Notes under the pieces: generated by a model
Told to the model about the DNA's origin: nothing
Database searches by the model: none
The model's input: the letters and a program-made list of their open reading frames with translations, nothing else
Shown here: positions 2,964 to 52,934 of the stretch, piece by piece
Layout of the letters: the number at the start of each line of letters is the position of its first letter
Position numbering within the stretch: position 1 is the first letter of the stretch
Position numbers and translations under genes: made by a program
Source of the DNA: Bacteroidota bacterium
Lineage (GTDB): Bacteria > Bacteroidota > Bacteroidia > Bacteroidales > GCA-2711565
Length of the DNA stretch: 64,000 bases
Direction: 5' to 3'
Assembly (NCBI GenBank): GCA_018816945.1
Contig: JAHIVC010000015.1
Span: forward strand, 62,001-126,000

Positions 2964-5900
2964 TTAAAAAATGGTGATCTCTGCTTTTTTTACTGCATCC
3001 TGATATTTTTTCCATCCATTGTCAAAGAATTTATTTAATTGGCCGGTGTATTCAGCCATCGCTTTTTCAGCCTGATCTATGGCGTATTTTTGGTTGCTGT
3101 TAAGCTTGGTTGCTGCCATTAATCCCGAAAATGCTGGCCATATTTTATTTGAAATTTCTTTTGGGTTACTATAAATTCCCTGAACGTCTTTAGGGCCATA
3201 CATGAGTTCGTTCAGTTCCTTAATGGTGATACCAATTTCTTTCTCGATCGATTTTAAACTATCGATGTTTGGACTGCTTTCTTTAGGGATAAGTTTGTTA
3301 ACGATATCAATTTTCTTTTCAATTTCTTTAAGTTTATCGAGTGCTGTATTTAATTCATCAACCATGGCAATAAAAGGATCAAGATTTTTCCGATTTGTAA
3401 TCATTGCATCCGCATCAATGTCTAACCGATTATCAGCTTTTACCATCAGGGTACTTGAGGCTTCTGCATCCTTATATTTCAAATTTAAAGTATAAGTGCC
3501 AGGCAAAGTGATGGGGCCTCCACCTTGTGTTCTTGCATTCTTGGGGGCTGGCCTGCCAGGCATTCTAAAACCTCTGGTATCAAAGCCCCAGTATGTTCGG
3601 TTAATCCCTTTTTTTGGCTTTATTGATAATGTGCGAATGGTGTCATTATTAGAATCAATAATATCAATATTTACCATTTCATTTTCATCTGCTTCTTTGA
3701 TGAAAAAACTAATCATTGCCCCCATTGGTCTGTTTTCGCCTTCATAATAGGAGTCACCGGCATATTGTCGCATCCAAACCGGATATCCAGGTGCAACTTT
3801 TGGCTTAGCCATAATTGCGGTAGGAAGATCAAATGCAACCAGTTCCTGCTCAAAAATATTTGTACCATCCTGAGCAAGCTTTCTTAAAGGTCGAATATCA
3901 TCCAATACCCAAATTGATCGACCGAAGGTACCGATGACCAAATCATACTCGCGGGGATGAATTTTCAGATCCATGGTAGATACTGTGGGATAAGAATGAG
4001 TCCATTTAGTCCAGTTATCTCCGGCATCAATACTTATATAAAGTCCCATTTCACTACCTAAAAACATTAGCTTTGGTTCAATTGGGTCTTGTTCAAAACT
4101 CAGTGCATATCCCCATATTTCTGAGTTGTCAGCAATTTGTTCCCATTTTCTACCATAGTCTTTGGTATGATAAACATAAGTGCTGTAATCATTCTGTCGA
4201 TAATTATTTACGATAACAAATGCTTCTGCAGCATTATATTTTGATGGATGAATTTGAGGAATCCAAGCATTTAACGGGGCACCTTTAATTTTGCCATAAA
4301 CATTGACCCATGTTTCTCCACCATCAGTCGTCAGTTGCAGATTACCATCATCTGTTCCCACCCAAATTACCTTTTCGTCAAGTGGACTGGGAGCTATGGA
4401 AATGATGGTTGTATGATTTTCTGCTCCTGTGGCATCATAAGTTATTCCACCACTTAAATGTTGTTTTTGTTTCTCAGGATCGTTTGTGCTTAAATCAGGA
4501 CTAATGATTTCCCAGTTCTCTCCACGGTCATTACTTTTGTGTAAAAACTGACTTCCAAAATAAATGCTATTCTGATCAAATGGATTTTGTGCAATGGCTG
4601 CATTCCAGTTAAAACGCACGTCAATTCCTTCAGGATGAACAGGACGAATATTTTTAGAATCCCCGGTCAGAATATCATTTCTTGATAAATGACCTTGCTG
4701 TGACATTGAATAGCAGTATCGTGCATCTCCGGGTACAGGAACAGCATCAAAACCATCCCCGCCATTCAGATAATCCCAATAATTATTGATAATTCCCTGT
4801 CTGCTCCAAACGTAAGACGGGCCCACCCATGATCCATTGTCCTGCATCCCACCATAAATATTATATGGAAGTTCATTGTCAACATCGATATGATAGAACT
4901 GACCGACAGGAAGATTCGAAATTAATCTCCAGGTTTTGCCCATATCATGTGTAATGGCCATTCCACCATCGTTACCATCAATCATAAAAGAAGGTTCGTT
5001 AGGATGGATCCACCAGGCATGATGATCACTATGGATACTTTCAGCAGTTTGATCGGTAAAGGTCAAAGCCCCGTCTTCACTCACATTGACAAAACTGTAC
5101 AATGAGTAAACCCTATTTTCATTTTTTGAATCAACAAATAAATCAGCATAATAAAAAGGGCGGTCACCAATATTTTTATCCCCTCGTTTTTCCCATTTAT
5201 AACCACCATCCGTTGATCGGTATATGGCATTTTTTTTAGATTCAACTAATGCGTAAATATATTTTGGATTACTTCTGCTTATGGCTAACCCGATTCGTCC
5301 GATCTCTCCCGAAGGAAGTCCGTCTTCCTCTGAAAGTAGTTTCCAGTTTTCTCCACCATCAATGGTCATGTATAGTCCGGAGCCTTCACCGCCTGATTTA
5401 AAAAACCAAGGTTGGCGATGATGCTGCCACATGGCAACAAATATTTTATCCGGATTTGAAGGATCCATCACCATATCAGCTACCCCGGATTGATCGTTGG
5501 TAAATAAAATTTGATCCCAGGTTTTTCCACCATCGGTTGTTTTAAAAACTCCTCTTTCAGGATGTGGGCCCCAGGGGCTTCCGATTGCTCCGACATAAAC
5601 AATATTCGGGTTCTCCGGATGGGTGATAATTCGATGAATATGACGAGTGTTTTCCAATCCCATTTCCTTCCAGGTTCTACCACCGTTAACACTTTTATAA
5701 AGTCCGTACCCGCCAGTTAAACTGTTTCTTGGATTCCCTTCACCGGTTCCTGCCCAAATGATATCGGGATTTTTTTGAAATATAGCAATAGCCCCTATTG
5801 AGGCTGCTTTTTTATCTTCAAAAATTGGTGTCCAATTTGTTCCGGCATTTTCTGATTTCCATAATCCGCCTGAAGCAGTGCCTGCATAAATAATATTGGT

Positions 5901-47499: not shown

Positions 47500-48468
47500 A
47501 TGATGATTTATGTAAAGATTAAATATATAAGTTGTTTTTTTATTCTCTTATTGATCCTGAGCAATTGTGGGCAACAACAGACTAATAATAATCATAAACT
47601 GATAATTTTTCATGCGGGTAGTTTGTCTGTTCCCCTTAAAGAAGTGATCGAATTATTTAATAAAGAATACCCGGAGATAAGTATATTGACTGAAGCAGCC
47701 GGGAGTAGGGATTGTGCGCGCAAAATAACCGATTTAAAAAAGGAATGTGATGTAATGGCATCTGCCGATTATACAGTTATCGATCAATTATTAATTCCGG
47801 ATCATGCAAGTTGGAACATTCATTTTGCCAGTAACGAGATGGTGATCGTTTATCATGATGAAGAGCAATCGTTTCGGAAAATTGATTCAACAAACTGGTT
47901 TAATATCTTATTGAATGATGAAATAAAATATGGTAGATCGGAACCAAATGCAGATCCATGCGGATATAGAACCGTATTAGTCGCAAAGTTAGCTGAAAAG
48001 TATTATAATATCCCGGGATTTGCTTCAAAGCTTATGGCCAAAGATCAGCAGTACATTCGTCCGAAGGAAACAGATTTACTCGCTCTTTTTGAAACAAATA
48101 CGGTAGATTTTATCTTTATCTATCGTTCAATTGCGGAGCAACATGGTTTAAAATATTTGACACTTCCGGATGCAATTAATTTAAAATCTTCCAAATTTAC
48201 TGAAGAATATTCATCTGTAACAGTCGACCTTTCCGGTAGAGAGCCCGGCAGTATTATTACCCAAATAGGTGAGCCAATGGTTTATGGAATAACAATTCCA
48301 ACAAATGCACCTAATAAAAGTACTGCTATAAAATTTGTCGACTTCCTATTATCGGATAAAGGAATGGCAATTATGGAAAAAAATGGACAACCATCGATAG
48401 TTCCTTCATATAGTGATTCATTTCAAAACATCCCGGTATCATTAAAAAAATATGCCCTAAAGAAATGA
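47500..48468 (+). CDS. wtpA: Tungstate/molybdate-binding lipoprotein
   Basis: 322 residues with lipoprotein signal (CFFILLLILSNC). Periplasmic-binding fold of the WtpA type: LIIFHAGSLSVPLKEVIELF, EAAGSRDCARKITDL, DVMASADYTVID, GRSEPNADPCGYRT, and TVDFIFIYRSIAEQHG. WtpA binds tungstate (very tightly) and molybdate and hands them to WtpBC. Start at 47500 gives MM; either Met fits. The outer-membrane barrel gene follows after 30 bases. Confidence 0.9.
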   Translation: MMIYVKIKYISCFFILLLILSNCGQQQTNNNHKLIIFHAGSLSVPLKEVIELFNKEYPEISILTEAAGSRDCARKITDLKKECDVMASADYTVIDQLLIPDHASWNIHFASNEMVIVYHDEEQSFRKIDSTNWFNILLNDEIKYGRSEPNADPCGYRTVLVAKLAEKYYNIPGFASKLMAKDQQYIRPKETDLLALFETNTVDFIFIYRSIAEQHGLKYLTLPDAINLKSSKFTEEYSSVTVDLSGREPGSIITQIGEPMVYGITIPTNAPNKSTAIKFVDFLLSDKGMAIMEKNGQPSIVPSYSDSFQNIPVSLKKYALKK

Positions 48469-48498: not shown

Positions 48499-49749
48499 AT
48501 GAAAAAAACTTATCTGATTACAGCTTTAATATTGTTAAACATTTTGGCCTTTGCTCAATTTAAAATGGAGGGTGAAATACGCCCAAGACTTGAATTCAGG
48601 GACGGCTATAAAAATCTGATGCCAATGGATGCAAATCCGGCTTTGTTAGTCAGTCAGAGAACAAGGTTAGGTGTCAGTTATCAAACAAAATTATACACTA
48701 CCCAGATTACTTTTCAGGATGTGAGGATTTGGGGAGAGGAGCAAATAAATACAAATAAAGTCAATATTGGATTGCACGAAGCCTGGCTTGAGTTCAATGC
48801 AGCTTCATCAATAAAAATTAAAATCGGAAGGCAAGTCTTAAAATATGATAACGAGCGATTGATTGCATCAACAAACTGGCTTCAGGTTGGGGCAAAGCAT
48901 GACGCAATGAAAGTATCGTACAAATCCACAAATTGGGATCTCGATTTGATAGGCGCTTTTAATCAATCCGGCGATATTTATTATCAATCACCTTACCTAT
49001 TATTTAATAAGCAATATAAAAACCTTGGAATTTTATGGTTGAGTCGTAAAATGCAAAAGTTTACATTTTCGAATTTAACAATCGTTGAAGGACTGCGAAA
49101 GGATGATGTCGGCGTTCAAATTAATACACGACTAACAACAGGAATAATATCTAAGGCAAAACTTGAAAAAACGGATGTTGATGCACGTTTCTTTTATCAG
49201 ACAGGGAAAAAACAAAATGGGAATAAAGTAAATGCATACCTGGCCAATTTGGATATTTATTATCATCTAAATAAAGAAAGCACTTTGATGGCAGGATTTG
49301 AATTGCAATCTGGAAACCGAAATCCAAAAATAATTGAAGGATCAGACAAAGGATTTGAGGTTTTATACGGAAGCAAGCATTCTTTTAACGGTTTGATGGA
49401 TTATTTTGGCGGTTCAAATTCAATCAATGGAATGGGCTTGTTTGATATCTATCTTAAGTATATTGCTGTAATTAATAATAAACTTGAACTTAATTTTGAT
49501 TATCACTATTTCAAAACACCAAAAAACTTTCAAAATGAAGGAGTAGATTACCATGGTTATTTAGGTTCGGAAATTGACCTAAGTTGTTCGATCAAGATTT
49601 CACCAGAAATTAATATTACAAATATTTTTGGGATGATGATTGCGACGAATTCATTGGCTGTTGCAAAAGGTAGTGATTTAGATGCCGTAAAAAATGGTTA
49701 TTATTTTGTAACAATGCTTACCTTTAAACCAGTGTTTTTTAAAAACTAA
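48499..49749 (+). CDS. Outer-membrane beta-barrel protein (alginate-export-like) in the wtp operon
   Basis: 416 residues with signal peptide (MKKTYLITALILLNILAFAQ). Amphipathic strands run through the whole protein (FKMEGEIRPRLEFRDGY, RTRLGVSYQTKLYTTQITFQDVR in two blocks, KIKIGRQVLKYDNERLI, LDIYYHLNKESTLMAGFELQSG), and the C-terminal residue pattern (YFVTMLTFKPVFF) suits a barrel. This resembles the alginate-export/porin family. It sits between wtpA (30 bases) and wtpB (4 bases), so it is translated with the tungstate importer and may be its outer-membrane channel. Confidence 0.8.
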   Translation: MKKTYLITALILLNILAFAQFKMEGEIRPRLEFRDGYKNLMPMDANPALLVSQRTRLGVSYQTKLYTTQITFQDVRIWGEEQINTNKVNIGLHEAWLEFNAASSIKIKIGRQVLKYDNERLIASTNWLQVGAKHDAMKVSYKSTNWDLDLIGAFNQSGDIYYQSPYLLFNKQYKNLGILWLSRKMQKFTFSNLTIVEGLRKDDVGVQINTRLTTGIISKAKLEKTDVDARFFYQTGKKQNGNKVNAYLANLDIYYHLNKESTLMAGFELQSGNRNPKIIEGSDKGFEVLYGSKHSFNGLMDYFGGSNSINGMGLFDIYLKYIAVINNKLELNFDYHYFKTPKNFQNEGVDYHGYLGSEIDLSCSIKISPEINITNIFGMMIATNSLAVAKGSDLDAVKNGYYFVTMLTFKPVFFKN

Positions 49750-49753
49750 ATGA

Positions 49754-50572
49754 ATGATCCGAACGGATTCTTTTAGCCTTGTTTTGAGTTTATTGGGAGC
49801 AATCATACTCCTGTTTATTATTGCGCCTTTGGCAGGTTTACTGCTTGATACTCCGCTTGCAAAAATATTTGAAACTACTCAGGACGAACAAGTTGTTAAA
49901 AGCATCTGGCTTACCTTGTCGGCTTCATTCGGAGGTACTTTGTTTTGTGCAATTTTTGCCATTCCGTTGGCTTATGTACTTGCCAGAAAGGAATTTACGG
50001 GAAAGCGATTAGTGTTAGGAATTATCGATTTACCTATCGTAATTCCTCACTCGGCGGCCGGGATCGCTGTATTAGGTTTTATTTCCAGAGATTCGGTATT
50101 TGGGCAAATGGCTTCAAGTGTTGGGTTAGACTTTGTAGGCCATCCTATTGGAATTTCAATGGCAATGGCATTTGTGAGCATTCCTTTTTTGATTAATGCA
50201 GCTCGTGACGGATTTGGCTCAATACCAATTCGGTTGGAACAGGCGGCAAAAAACTTAGGTGCCAATTCTGTACGTGTATTTTTCACAATCTCTTTACCGC
50301 TGGCATGGCGTTATATCTTGTCCGGATTTATCATGATGTTTGCCCGTGGACTGAGCGAATTTGGAGCAGTTGTAATAGTTGCTTATCATCCTATGATAAC
50401 TCCTGTTTTGATTTATGAACGATACACCTCATTCGGATTAAAATATGCCAGACCAGTCGCAATATTATTTATTCTGGTTTGTTTGGTCTTTTTCATTGCG
50501 TTGAGGTTCTTAGTTCAAAACAGATCAAAGCAAAATCAAAAAAATACCTTGTTAAAAAATAATGCAAATTAA
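49754..50572 (+). CDS. wtpB: Tungstate/molybdate ABC transporter permease
   Basis: 272 residues, six predicted membrane helices. The binding-protein-dependent transport motif EQAAKNLGANSVRVFFTISLPLAW (EAA loop, given in part as EQAAKNLGAN) contacts the ATPase. FARGLSEFGAVVIVAYHP is typical of molybdate/tungstate/sulfate permeases. The gene ends right at the start of wtpC (stop 50572, start 50573). Confidence 0.9.
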   Translation: MIRTDSFSLVLSLLGAIILLFIIAPLAGLLLDTPLAKIFETTQDEQVVKSIWLTLSASFGGTLFCAIFAIPLAYVLARKEFTGKRLVLGIIDLPIVIPHSAAGIAVLGFISRDSVFGQMASSVGLDFVGHPIGISMAMAFVSIPFLINAARDGFGSIPIRLEQAAKNLGANSVRVFFTISLPLAWRYILSGFIMMFARGLSEFGAVVIVAYHPMITPVLIYERYTSFGLKYARPVAILFILVCLVFFIALRFLVQNRSKQNQKNTLLKNNAN

Positions 50573-51616
50573 ATGCTTGAATTAAGAAATATCTCACTTC
50601 TTTTCCCCGAATTTTCATTAAGGGATGTTAATTTGAATATCCACAAAGGTGAATATTATGTGATTCTGGGTTTGTCGGGAGCTGGGAAATCACTTCTACT
50701 TGAATGTATTGCCGGAATGCAACAACCAAATACTGGACAAGTATTTTTGGATGGAGAAGATATCACCCGCAAAAAAATTCAGGATAGAAATGTAGGATAT
50801 GTTTTTCAGGATCATGCAGTTTTTCCGCATCTAAACGTATTTAATAATATTGCTTATTCTTTAAAGAAAAAATACCCTAAAGAAATCATTCATCAAAAAG
50901 TAAAAGAAGCAGCCGAACTTGTAAGTATTGGTCATTTGCTCGATAGGCAACCAAACACTTTGTCGGGAGGAGAGTCGCAAAGAGTGGCATTAGCCCGTAC
51001 ACTTATTCGTGACCCAAAATGCCTTCTGCTTGATGAACCATTCTCTTCTTTGGATGTGCAACTGAGGGATGATTTAAGGGCCTTATTACGTAAGCTAAAT
51101 AGAATGGGGAGAACCATTATCCATGTAACACATGATTATGAAGAGGCTATTTCACTTGCTCAAAAAATTGCTGTATTTCAGGATGGCAAACTCATTCAAC
51201 AAGGTGATCCATTTGAGGTATTTGCAAATCCGGTTTCTGAATTTGTAGCTCGCTTTAGGGGAATCAGGAATTTCTTTAAATCAAAAATGATCAGCCAAAA
51301 CCAAACAATGATTAAAAATATGATTCTGGTGGATATTCCCATTCAGGAAAAAATTTCAGAAGGATTTATTATGTTTAACAGTACGGATGTGAAAATTAGC
51401 AAGGAAAAACCAACTGGTAAAATTTCAAATCTTTTTAAGGGTCAAATTATAGACATTATTCCAAATTTTAAAGGAAATGAAATAAGTATTGCTTCAGAAA
51501 TTAACCTGACATCGTTTATTAATCATCCGGCATTTAAAATTCTTCAATTAAAAATTGGAGATGAGGTATGGGCCAGCATTAATCCGGAAAAAATTAAATT
51601 CCTTCCAATTATCTAA
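50573..51616 (+). CDS. wtpC: Tungstate/molybdate ABC transporter ATPase
   Basis: 347 residues. ABC domain: Walker A GLSGAGKS (33-40), Q-loop YVFQDHAVFPH, signature LSGGESQRVALARTL, Walker B LLLDEPFSSLD and the switch His in THDYEE. The C-terminal 100 residues form a TOBE-like regulatory domain (FKGNEISIASEINL, LKIGDEVWASINPEKI) as in ModC/WtpC, where it can bind the oxyanion. It overlaps the convergent rseP gene by 8 bases at its 3' end. Confidence 0.92.
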   Translation: MLELRNISLLFPEFSLRDVNLNIHKGEYYVILGLSGAGKSLLLECIAGMQQPNTGQVFLDGEDITRKKIQDRNVGYVFQDHAVFPHLNVFNNIAYSLKKKYPKEIIHQKVKEAAELVSIGHLLDRQPNTLSGGESQRVALARTLIRDPKCLLLDEPFSSLDVQLRDDLRALLRKLNRMGRTIIHVTHDYEEAISLAQKIAVFQDGKLIQQGDPFEVFANPVSEFVARFRGIRNFFKSKMISQNQTMIKNMILVDIPIQEKISEGFIMFNSTDVKISKEKPTGKISNLFKGQIIDIIPNFKGNEISIASEINLTSFINHPAFKILQLKIGDEVWASINPEKIKFLPII

Positions 51617-52934
51617 AAAGTTTTACGATATCATTTCCATTTGCGAAAATCAACAATGCAAATAGGATAACCATTCCAACTACCTGAGCGTATTCCATGA
51701 ATTTATCACTAGGCTTTCTGCGGGCAATAATTTCATAAAGTAAAAACATTACGTGGCCACCATCAAGTGCAGGAATAGGTAATACATTCAGAATGGCTAA
51801 CATAATTGAAAGAAATGCAGTGAGTCGCCAAAAATTTTCCCAATCCCAGGTACTTGGGAAAATGCTACCAATGGTAATAAACCCACCAACCGATTCATAA
51901 GCTTTAACTTCAGGTGAGAAAAGTAATTTTAATTGTTTCAAATAATCACTAATGCCATTATAAGCTTTTGCAATACCTGCCGGAACAGCACTAATGATAT
52001 TGTATTTTTTTTCTGATAATGTAAAGTATTCAGAAAGTGGTTTGACATAAACCCCAATCTGTCCCGATTCAGGGAGATTTACTTCTAATGCCAGTGTATC
52101 AGCTTCTCGGATTACAGTAATATTAATAATTTGATTTTTGTATTTTTTGAGTTCATTCGCAAACTGATCGAAATAGGGAAAGCTTTGACCATTAATTCCT
52201 ATAATCTTATCATCAATTTTTATTCCTGCTGCTTGTCCTGCAGAATTTTTGATGAATCCTCCTGCTTCATAAGGAAAGCGGACATAAAGGAAATCTGCTG
52301 TTTTTCGTTTAATCATTTTTCCAACAAATCCCTTTGGAATTTGAATATTCATAATTTCTCCATCGCGCTCAACTTGCACCGATTGGGCTTCATTGAGAAT
52401 TAATGTTATGGGGATTTTTAGAAAATCCTCAACAGGTTCATTGTCGATAGAAAGAAACTTATCTCCATTTTGCAATCCCATTTCTATCGCGATCGAATCA
52501 CAAACGATTCCATATTTGTTAGCTTCAGAAGTTGGGAGGTATTCTTCGCCCCAATAAGCAAGCATCACTACATAAATAGCAATTGCCAGTAATATGTTTA
52601 CAGTTACCCCTCCTAACATAATAATAAGTCGTTGCCAGGCTGGTTTTGATCTGAACTCGAACGGCTGAGGTGGAAGTTTCATGGCTTCCTTATCCATCGA
52701 TTCGTCGATCATTCCTGATATTTTAACATATCCACCCAACGGAAGCCAGCCCATGCCGTATTCAGTTTCACCTTTTCTAAACTTAAAAATCGAAAACCAA
52801 GGATTAAAAAAGAGATAAAATTTTTCAACCCTTGTTTTAAATATTTTTGCGGAGATAAAATGACCAAATTCATGAAAGATTACCAGAATTGATAAACTGA
52901 GTAATAATTGTAATATTTTTATTAGGATGTCCAT
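51609..52934 (-). CDS. rseP: Site-2 intramembrane zinc metalloprotease RseP
   Basis: 441 residues. Active-site HEFGH at 21-25 in the first membrane helix and the LDGGH motif (PIPALDGGHVMFLLYE) near the C-terminus. Two PDZ-like regions lie between. It cleaves membrane anchors such as anti-sigma factors and remnant signal peptides. The dxr gene is 11 bases upstream; the dxr-rseP pair is common across bacteria. Confidence 0.93.
   Translation of the reverse strand: MDILIKILQLLLSLSILVIFHEFGHFISAKIFKTRVEKFYLFFNPWFSIFKFRKGETEYGMGWLPLGGYVKISGMIDESMDKEAMKLPPQPFEFRSKPAWQRLIIMLGGVTVNILLAIAIYVVMLAYWGEEYLPTSEANKYGIVCDSIAIEMGLQNGDKFLSIDNEPVEDFLKIPITLILNEAQSVQVERDGEIMNIQIPKGFVGKMIKRKTADFLYVRFPYEAGGFIKNSAGQAAGIKIDDKIIGINGQSFPYFDQFANELKKYKNQIINITVIREADTLALEVNLPESGQIGVYVKPLSEYFTLSEKKYNIISAVPAGIAKAYNGISDYLKQLKLLFSPEVKAYESVGGFITIGSIFPSTWDWENFWRLTAFLSIMLAILNVLPIPALDGGHVMFLLYEIIARRKPSDKFMEYAQVVGMVILFALLIFANGNDIVKLFR

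Follow-up and report, generated by a model that had tools for sequence, protein, structure and literature searches.

A putative outer-membrane channel encoded within the tungstate importer operon of a Bacteroidota bacterium

Outer-membrane routes for oxyanions and the proteins closest to the present barrel

Known outer-membrane oxyanion channels include the phosphate-selective porins OprP and OprO of Pseudomonas aeruginosa (PF07396), with an arginine ladder and a lysine cluster described in OprP (PMC5877670). In Geobacter sulfurreducens the porin-like protein ExtI has been proposed for selenite/tellurite entry, an anchor role also being discussed for it (PMC5877670), and a FUR-linked porin lying directly before the importer genes feoAB has been noted as a possible iron entry (PMC545781); in both cases the roles are hypotheses and the cargo is other than tungstate or molybdate. 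For molybdate, a described outer-membrane step in P. aeruginosa employs a ModA secreted by a T6SS together with IcmP, an outer-membrane protein that is an insulin-cleaving metalloproteinase and not a porin (PMC8602904). A further group is the Alginate Export family typified by AlgE (PF13372, TC 1.B.13), with 18 predicted strands and a mean length of 507 aa, which a 2016 survey listed for Proteobacteria, Aquificae, Spirochaetae, Acidobacteria and Verrucomicrobia, and not for Bacteroidetes (PMC4827864). The annotation is in use in Bacteroidota: BT1414 of Bacteroides thetaiotaomicron, an 'alginate export family protein', lies in a nitrite-linked operon with nrfAH and ccs genes (PMC10434189) which is reported as raised in colitis (PMC3411805). 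In literature searches, several of which were surveyed only in part, no paper was seen that gives this barrel family an oxyanion role or that describes a porin dedicated to tungstate or molybdate.

Here, we analysed a window of 64,000 nucleotides from a Bacteroidota bacterium of the order Bacteroidales (assembly GCA_018816945.1, contig JAHIVC010000015.1, positions 62,001 to 126,000), in which a sequence-only reading had noticed a presumed outer-membrane barrel inside a tungstate/molybdate importer operon and had proposed an envelope-spanning oxyanion uptake route. The observation is confirmed and the interpretation is supported, although without permeation data, and with the reservation that 'alginate-export type' is only the Pfam name.

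The wtp operon and its conservation

Four genes lie on the + strand with gaps of 30, 4 and 0 bases: wtpA (47500-48468), the barrel gene (48499-49749), wtpB (49754-50572) and wtpC (50573-51616). WtpA (322 aa) is a firm member of the tungstate-binding protein family, as it passes the two equivalog models NF003196 (365.9 bits, cut-off 355) and TIGR03730 (308 bits, cut-off 242.75), and its relatives in the PDB are archaeal binding proteins such as 2onk_E, 'Molybdate/tungstate binding protein' (2e-68). The best models for the permease WtpB and the ATPase WtpC are NF040839 (tungstate_WtpB) and NF040840 (tungstate_WtpC), respectively, but both proteins lie under the cut-offs (279 of 340 bits and 322 of 440). 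The barrel protein (416 aa) matches PF13372 Alginate_exp (1e-12, 48 bits, cut-off 25.2) only in part, in two stretches, the best of which spans residues 67-151 and covers profile positions 49-140 of 395. This is the only Pfam family above a cut-off. At E<=1 no match was found to PF07396, to Plug or TonB_dep_Rec, or to any NCBIfam family, so that membership in the OprP/OprO porins and in the TonB-dependent receptors was rejected. By eye, the barrel carries a signal peptide-like start, MKKTYLITALILLNILAFAQ, and WtpA a lipoprotein-like ...LILSNC. The nearest named record, L002, is a Bacteroidetes MAG. AlphaFold2 modelling from the two sequences of the window and L002 reached a mean pLDDT of only 29, giving no usable structure; a profile of 28 homologs found no PDB sequence at E<=10, and a crude amphipathicity count gave 14 runs.

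A PF13372 search of the genome found this barrel alone, as did a single-protein search, while one of 14 control genomes, a Bacteroides, gave a match. The genome also contains four AFOR_C (aldehyde ferredoxin oxidoreductase family) matches over the cut-off, one of them 74% identical to an AOR that lies beside wtp in another genome. However, AFOR_C matches were also found in E. coli, so the family alone does not prove tungsten use. No ModA was found by TIGR01256, a search that was positive in 11 of 14 control genomes.

The gene order is conserved but not general. WtpA was found in 119 of 393 genomes of the order, and the next gene could be read in 111 of these loci: wtpB in 33, a gene on the opposite strand in 17, the barrel in 15, an unnamed family (c3) in 14, and smaller classes, while 6 loci end there and 2 were not read. 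With one or two barrels per genome of some 3,000 genes, well under one such adjacency would be expected by our rough estimate, and a chance meeting of wtpA and a barrel was rejected. Of the 15 loci, one (genome G004, positions 5269-5867 of its locus L063) holds a decayed copy, in which only residues 4-110 and 372-415 remain, with stops, so the channel can be lost while wtpABC stays. A second (genome G021) has wtpA and barrel without wtpB beside them. The other 13 keep the complete order wtpA-barrel-wtpB-wtpC on one strand, in nine family codes. In these operons, with start codons chosen by script, 3 to 142 bases precede the barrel, and the barrel and wtpB are within 10 bases of each other, or overlapping, in 11 of 13. 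No terminator-like site was found between the end of wtpA and the start of wtpB, but promoter and terminator scans gave no more sites than shuffles, terminator-like sites being no commoner in the region (5 against a mean of 4.9). The barrel is optional: 104 of 119 wtpA loci do not show it as the next gene, 8 of them because of a contig end or an unread gene, and 33 have wtpB there directly, so the importer can work without it. Of four other genomes of the genus with wtpA, one has the barrel, one has a decayed copy and two do not have it there. In the class, NF003196 gave matches in only 4 of 396 genomes, and the three besides the window have wtpB as the next Wtp gene after wtpA and no barrel.

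A comparison with a close genome, G001, showed that wtpA and the barrel diverge together as a block. Specifically, between 47250 and 49650 (edges read from 150-base windows) nucleotide identity falls to 68-69%, with 58-63% of fourfold sites differing and dS 1.4-1.8, against about 90% for yitT, wtpB and wtpC on both sides, with 30-31% of fourfold sites differing and dS 0.42-0.49. The simplest reading is replacement of wtpA and barrel as one piece. The block is seen, however, in one pair of genomes, and the nearby rseP-like gene has a short divergent patch of its own at 52050-52350 (66-78% against 84-91% on either side), so recombination is common here. Over the 13 operons, barrel distances correlate with WtpA at 0.74 (partial 0.59 given WtpB; 2,000 permutations, p about 0.0005), with WtpB at 0.69 (partial 0.49 given WtpA) and with WtpC at 0.77. 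In other words, the barrel travels with the operon as a whole, and a special tie to WtpA rests on the block alone.

Genomic partners, phylogeny and residues of the barrel family

The profile of 28 homologs gave matches in 169 of 393 genomes of the order at E<=1e-15 and in 101 of 396 genomes of the class at E<=1e-20; as at most four candidates per genome were scored, these are lower bounds. Neighbouring genes were named by Pfam and NCBIfam and the names carried over by BLAST. Of 148 distinct barrels of 340 aa or more, 22 sit at Pst phosphate operons (P; 21 directly beside a Pst gene on the same strand), 14 at wtpA (W), 59 at nitrogen-oxide genes (N) and 53 are unassigned (U). Label P required two Pst genes and label W a WtpA within three genes, whereas N was broad (any of 13 reference proteins): 45 of the 59 have NrfH, NrfA, Hcp, NarK-like or NirK, and 14 only a weaker marker (multihaem cytochrome, molybdopterin oxidoreductase, NorQ-like, ferredoxin/cupin). 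Where tested, NrfH, NrfA, Hcp, NirK, PstC and ModB are over the cut-offs of their models, while the NarK-like protein (174 of 311.7 bits), PstB and PstS are under theirs. Three of the unassigned barrels (loci L051, L319 and L320) head modA-mop-modB-modC, with ModA and/or ModB over NCBIfam cut-offs in each. Accordingly, 98 of 148 barrels have an oxyanion partner by these labels, or 84 without the weak ones, and 50 have no recognised one; as flanks were only 1.5 kb for part of the loci, some of the unassigned are unread rather than unlinked. The sample is not random, since it comprises the 30 best loci per search, larger regions for the hits of one search, 60 further barrels picked down the list of matches in the order, and wtp loci added through WtpA searches, which enriches W. 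Left out were barrel ORFs under 340 aa (among them the pst-linked L034 and L066 and the decayed L063), near-copies (over 90% shared 6-mers) and one locus (L059) with no barrel ORF recovered.

In a tree of 146 rows, from which two long-branch U rows were excluded, a 100% branch splits 64 rows (P 22, W 14, U 28, N 0) from 82 rows (N 59, U 23, P 0, W 0). The W/P/N labels need 3 changes, against a mean of 32 and a minimum of 26 in 200 shuffles. Thirteen of the 14 W rows, including the window barrel, form one clade with no other row (SH-aLRT 93), nested among pst-linked rows, while the fourteenth (genome G052) stands nearby with two pst-linked rows and one unassigned row. The three mod-linked barrels form their own 100% clade, separate from the wtp-linked ones. 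A mixture model on 88 rows (barrels under 380 aa excluded) needs 2 changes, the least possible for three labels. The unassigned rows, however, lie among the labelled ones: counted as a state of their own, they raise the changes for P to 14 (shuffled mean 20.7) and for N to 20 (46.0). We read this as one channel family that split early between nitrogen oxyanions and tetrahedral divalent oxyanions, with tungstate use arising among phosphate-type relatives and molybdate use arising separately, although the direction is an inference, since the root is a midpoint.

Residues R28, R30, E32, R54, R56, R76, G110, R111, R120, H294, E358 and D360 are kept in 59 to 62 of 62 labelled rows of the first set. 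Judged by the hydrophobicity of their neighbours, six of ten basic positions conserved past the signal peptide (R28, R30, R54, R56, R76 and K108) lie on the polar face of amphipathic strands, as does R230, typical of W (13 of 14 W rows). R111, R120, K174 and K390 do not fit a lumen position, and the mean face contrast of the ten (1.29) exceeds that of 35 other basic residues (0.42) only moderately. Mean net charge falls from W (+9.4) over P (+4.8) to N (+0.1), with wide overlap; charge and residue differences are not corrected for relatedness. These features fit an anion channel but are no proof of it.

In L038, L039, L147, L165 and L169, barrels lie in hydroxylamine reductase (hcp) clusters with an Rrf2 regulator, ferredoxin and, in some, a cupin and a hemerythrin/PAS protein; L098, L101 and L102 are similar, although hcp itself was not seen in the short flank. 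In L058, a relative (4247-5602, - strand) lies beside a YeiH-type putative sulfate exporter (73.6 bits, under its cut-off of 232.6), a possible further oxyanion link.

A candidate oxyanion channel and its alternatives

These findings would suggest that the barrel is an outer-membrane diffusion channel with a cationic lumen, specialised for tungstate and probably molybdate, a reading to which we assign a probability of about 0.7. In this model, the channel would be made together with the WtpABC importer, so that scarce oxyanion crossing the outer membrane down its gradient is caught at once by WtpA, probably a lipoprotein, and pumped in by WtpBC for the AOR-family enzymes of this genome. Insertion in the outer membrane as a barrel, passive flux, and tungstate or molybdate as the permeant are inferred. 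The protein would belong to a Bacteroidota family in which sub-clades serve different oxyanions, that is, phosphate (Pst), tungstate (Wtp), molybdate (Mod) and nitrite/nitrate (Nrf, NarK-like, NirK, Hcp). The sequence-only reading had suggested looking for the same barrel in wtp or mod operons, and both were found, in 13 intact wtp operons and 3 mod operons. It had also taken an occurrence with unrelated genes, without co-variation with wtpABC, as evidence against the idea; the family is indeed found elsewhere, but largely beside other oxyanion systems, and the clade holding the window barrel contains only rows beside wtpA (13 of 13 among the 146 sampled). The channel would work like those of the OprP type, with six of ten conserved basic residues appearing to lie on polar strand faces, although no structure shows whether they line the pore; it belongs to a different Pfam family and its gene sits inside an importer operon. 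If right, this would re-annotate many Bacteroidota genes now named alginate exporters, probably including the one in the B. thetaiotaomicron nitrite-reductase operon, and would offer a natural series of related pores for learning how one barrel tells WO4/MoO4, PO4 and NO2/NO3 apart.

Other explanations appear less likely. A general and only weakly anion-selective porin, co-expressed to raise outer-membrane permeability and without substrate tuning, is unlikely but the strongest of these, as passive porins may often be broad and the conserved lumen candidates are shared by all sub-clades. On the other hand, clade and partner agree closely (3 changes for 95 labelled rows), charge differs by class, and several genomes hold separate copies for separate partners, such as wtpA plus a nitrogen-oxide locus in G021, G657, G762, G653 and G676. 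A role as an outer-membrane scaffold or docking partner for WtpA or for cytochromes, in line with the anchor role discussed for ExtI, would fit the divergent block and the WtpA-barrel distance correlation. This is improbable, as the barrel correlates as well with WtpC, so that WtpA is not singled out, and as the family goes with unrelated partners (PstS, ModA, NrfHA, Hcp) that share an oxyanion and not one protein family.

Least favoured are an exporter and a hitchhiking gene with no functional tie to wtp. Export, of a polysaccharide or of excess oxyanion, is suggested by the PF13372 match and by the relative beside the YeiH-type protein, but many partners are binding-protein-dependent importers, and no polysaccharide gene was recognised among the neighbours scanned, although many of these stayed unnamed; the export role implied by the family name has no support here. 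Hitchhiking would agree with the barrel being decayed or not adjacent to wtpA in three of four other genomes of the genus that have wtpA, but is weakened by the thirteen intact operons over nine family codes and by the recurrent pairing with three oxyanion ABC importer types. A more speculative possibility, doubtful on present evidence but not excluded, is that WtpA docks on its own barrel and that the two form a TonB-independent capture unit, handing tungstate straight from pore to binding protein and being exchanged as a pair, as the block shared by wtpA and barrel might indicate. The same plan could run through the family with PstS and ModA, giving a general class of envelope-spanning oxyanion importers in Bacteroidota.

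Other proteins at wtp loci

Other routes may exist in the same cell. The genome has one weak Porin_O_P match and, on its contig C99 (locus L259, 4398-6782 and 6807-7874), a TonB-dependent receptor (PF00593, Plug) paired with a member of family c3, an unnamed and well conserved protein of ~350 aa without a Pfam match at E<=0.001 or a PDB match at E<=1. In other genomes of the order this pair, or c3 alone, sits in or beside the wtp operon (also L183, L199, L213 and L174), and it may be an alternative, TonB-driven tungstate/molybdate route. Many wtp loci of the order, such as L187, L191, L205, L216 and L252, carry in various mixes an AOR-family enzyme, MoeA, a MoaA-like radical SAM protein, a ModE-like HTH protein and aldehyde dehydrogenases. 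Finally, in some genomes the slot after wtpA is occupied by other unrelated proteins, namely families c15 (~255 aa; L177, L176 and L144) and c19 (~405 aa; L140, L141 and L250), the latter looking by eye like a C1-type peptidase.
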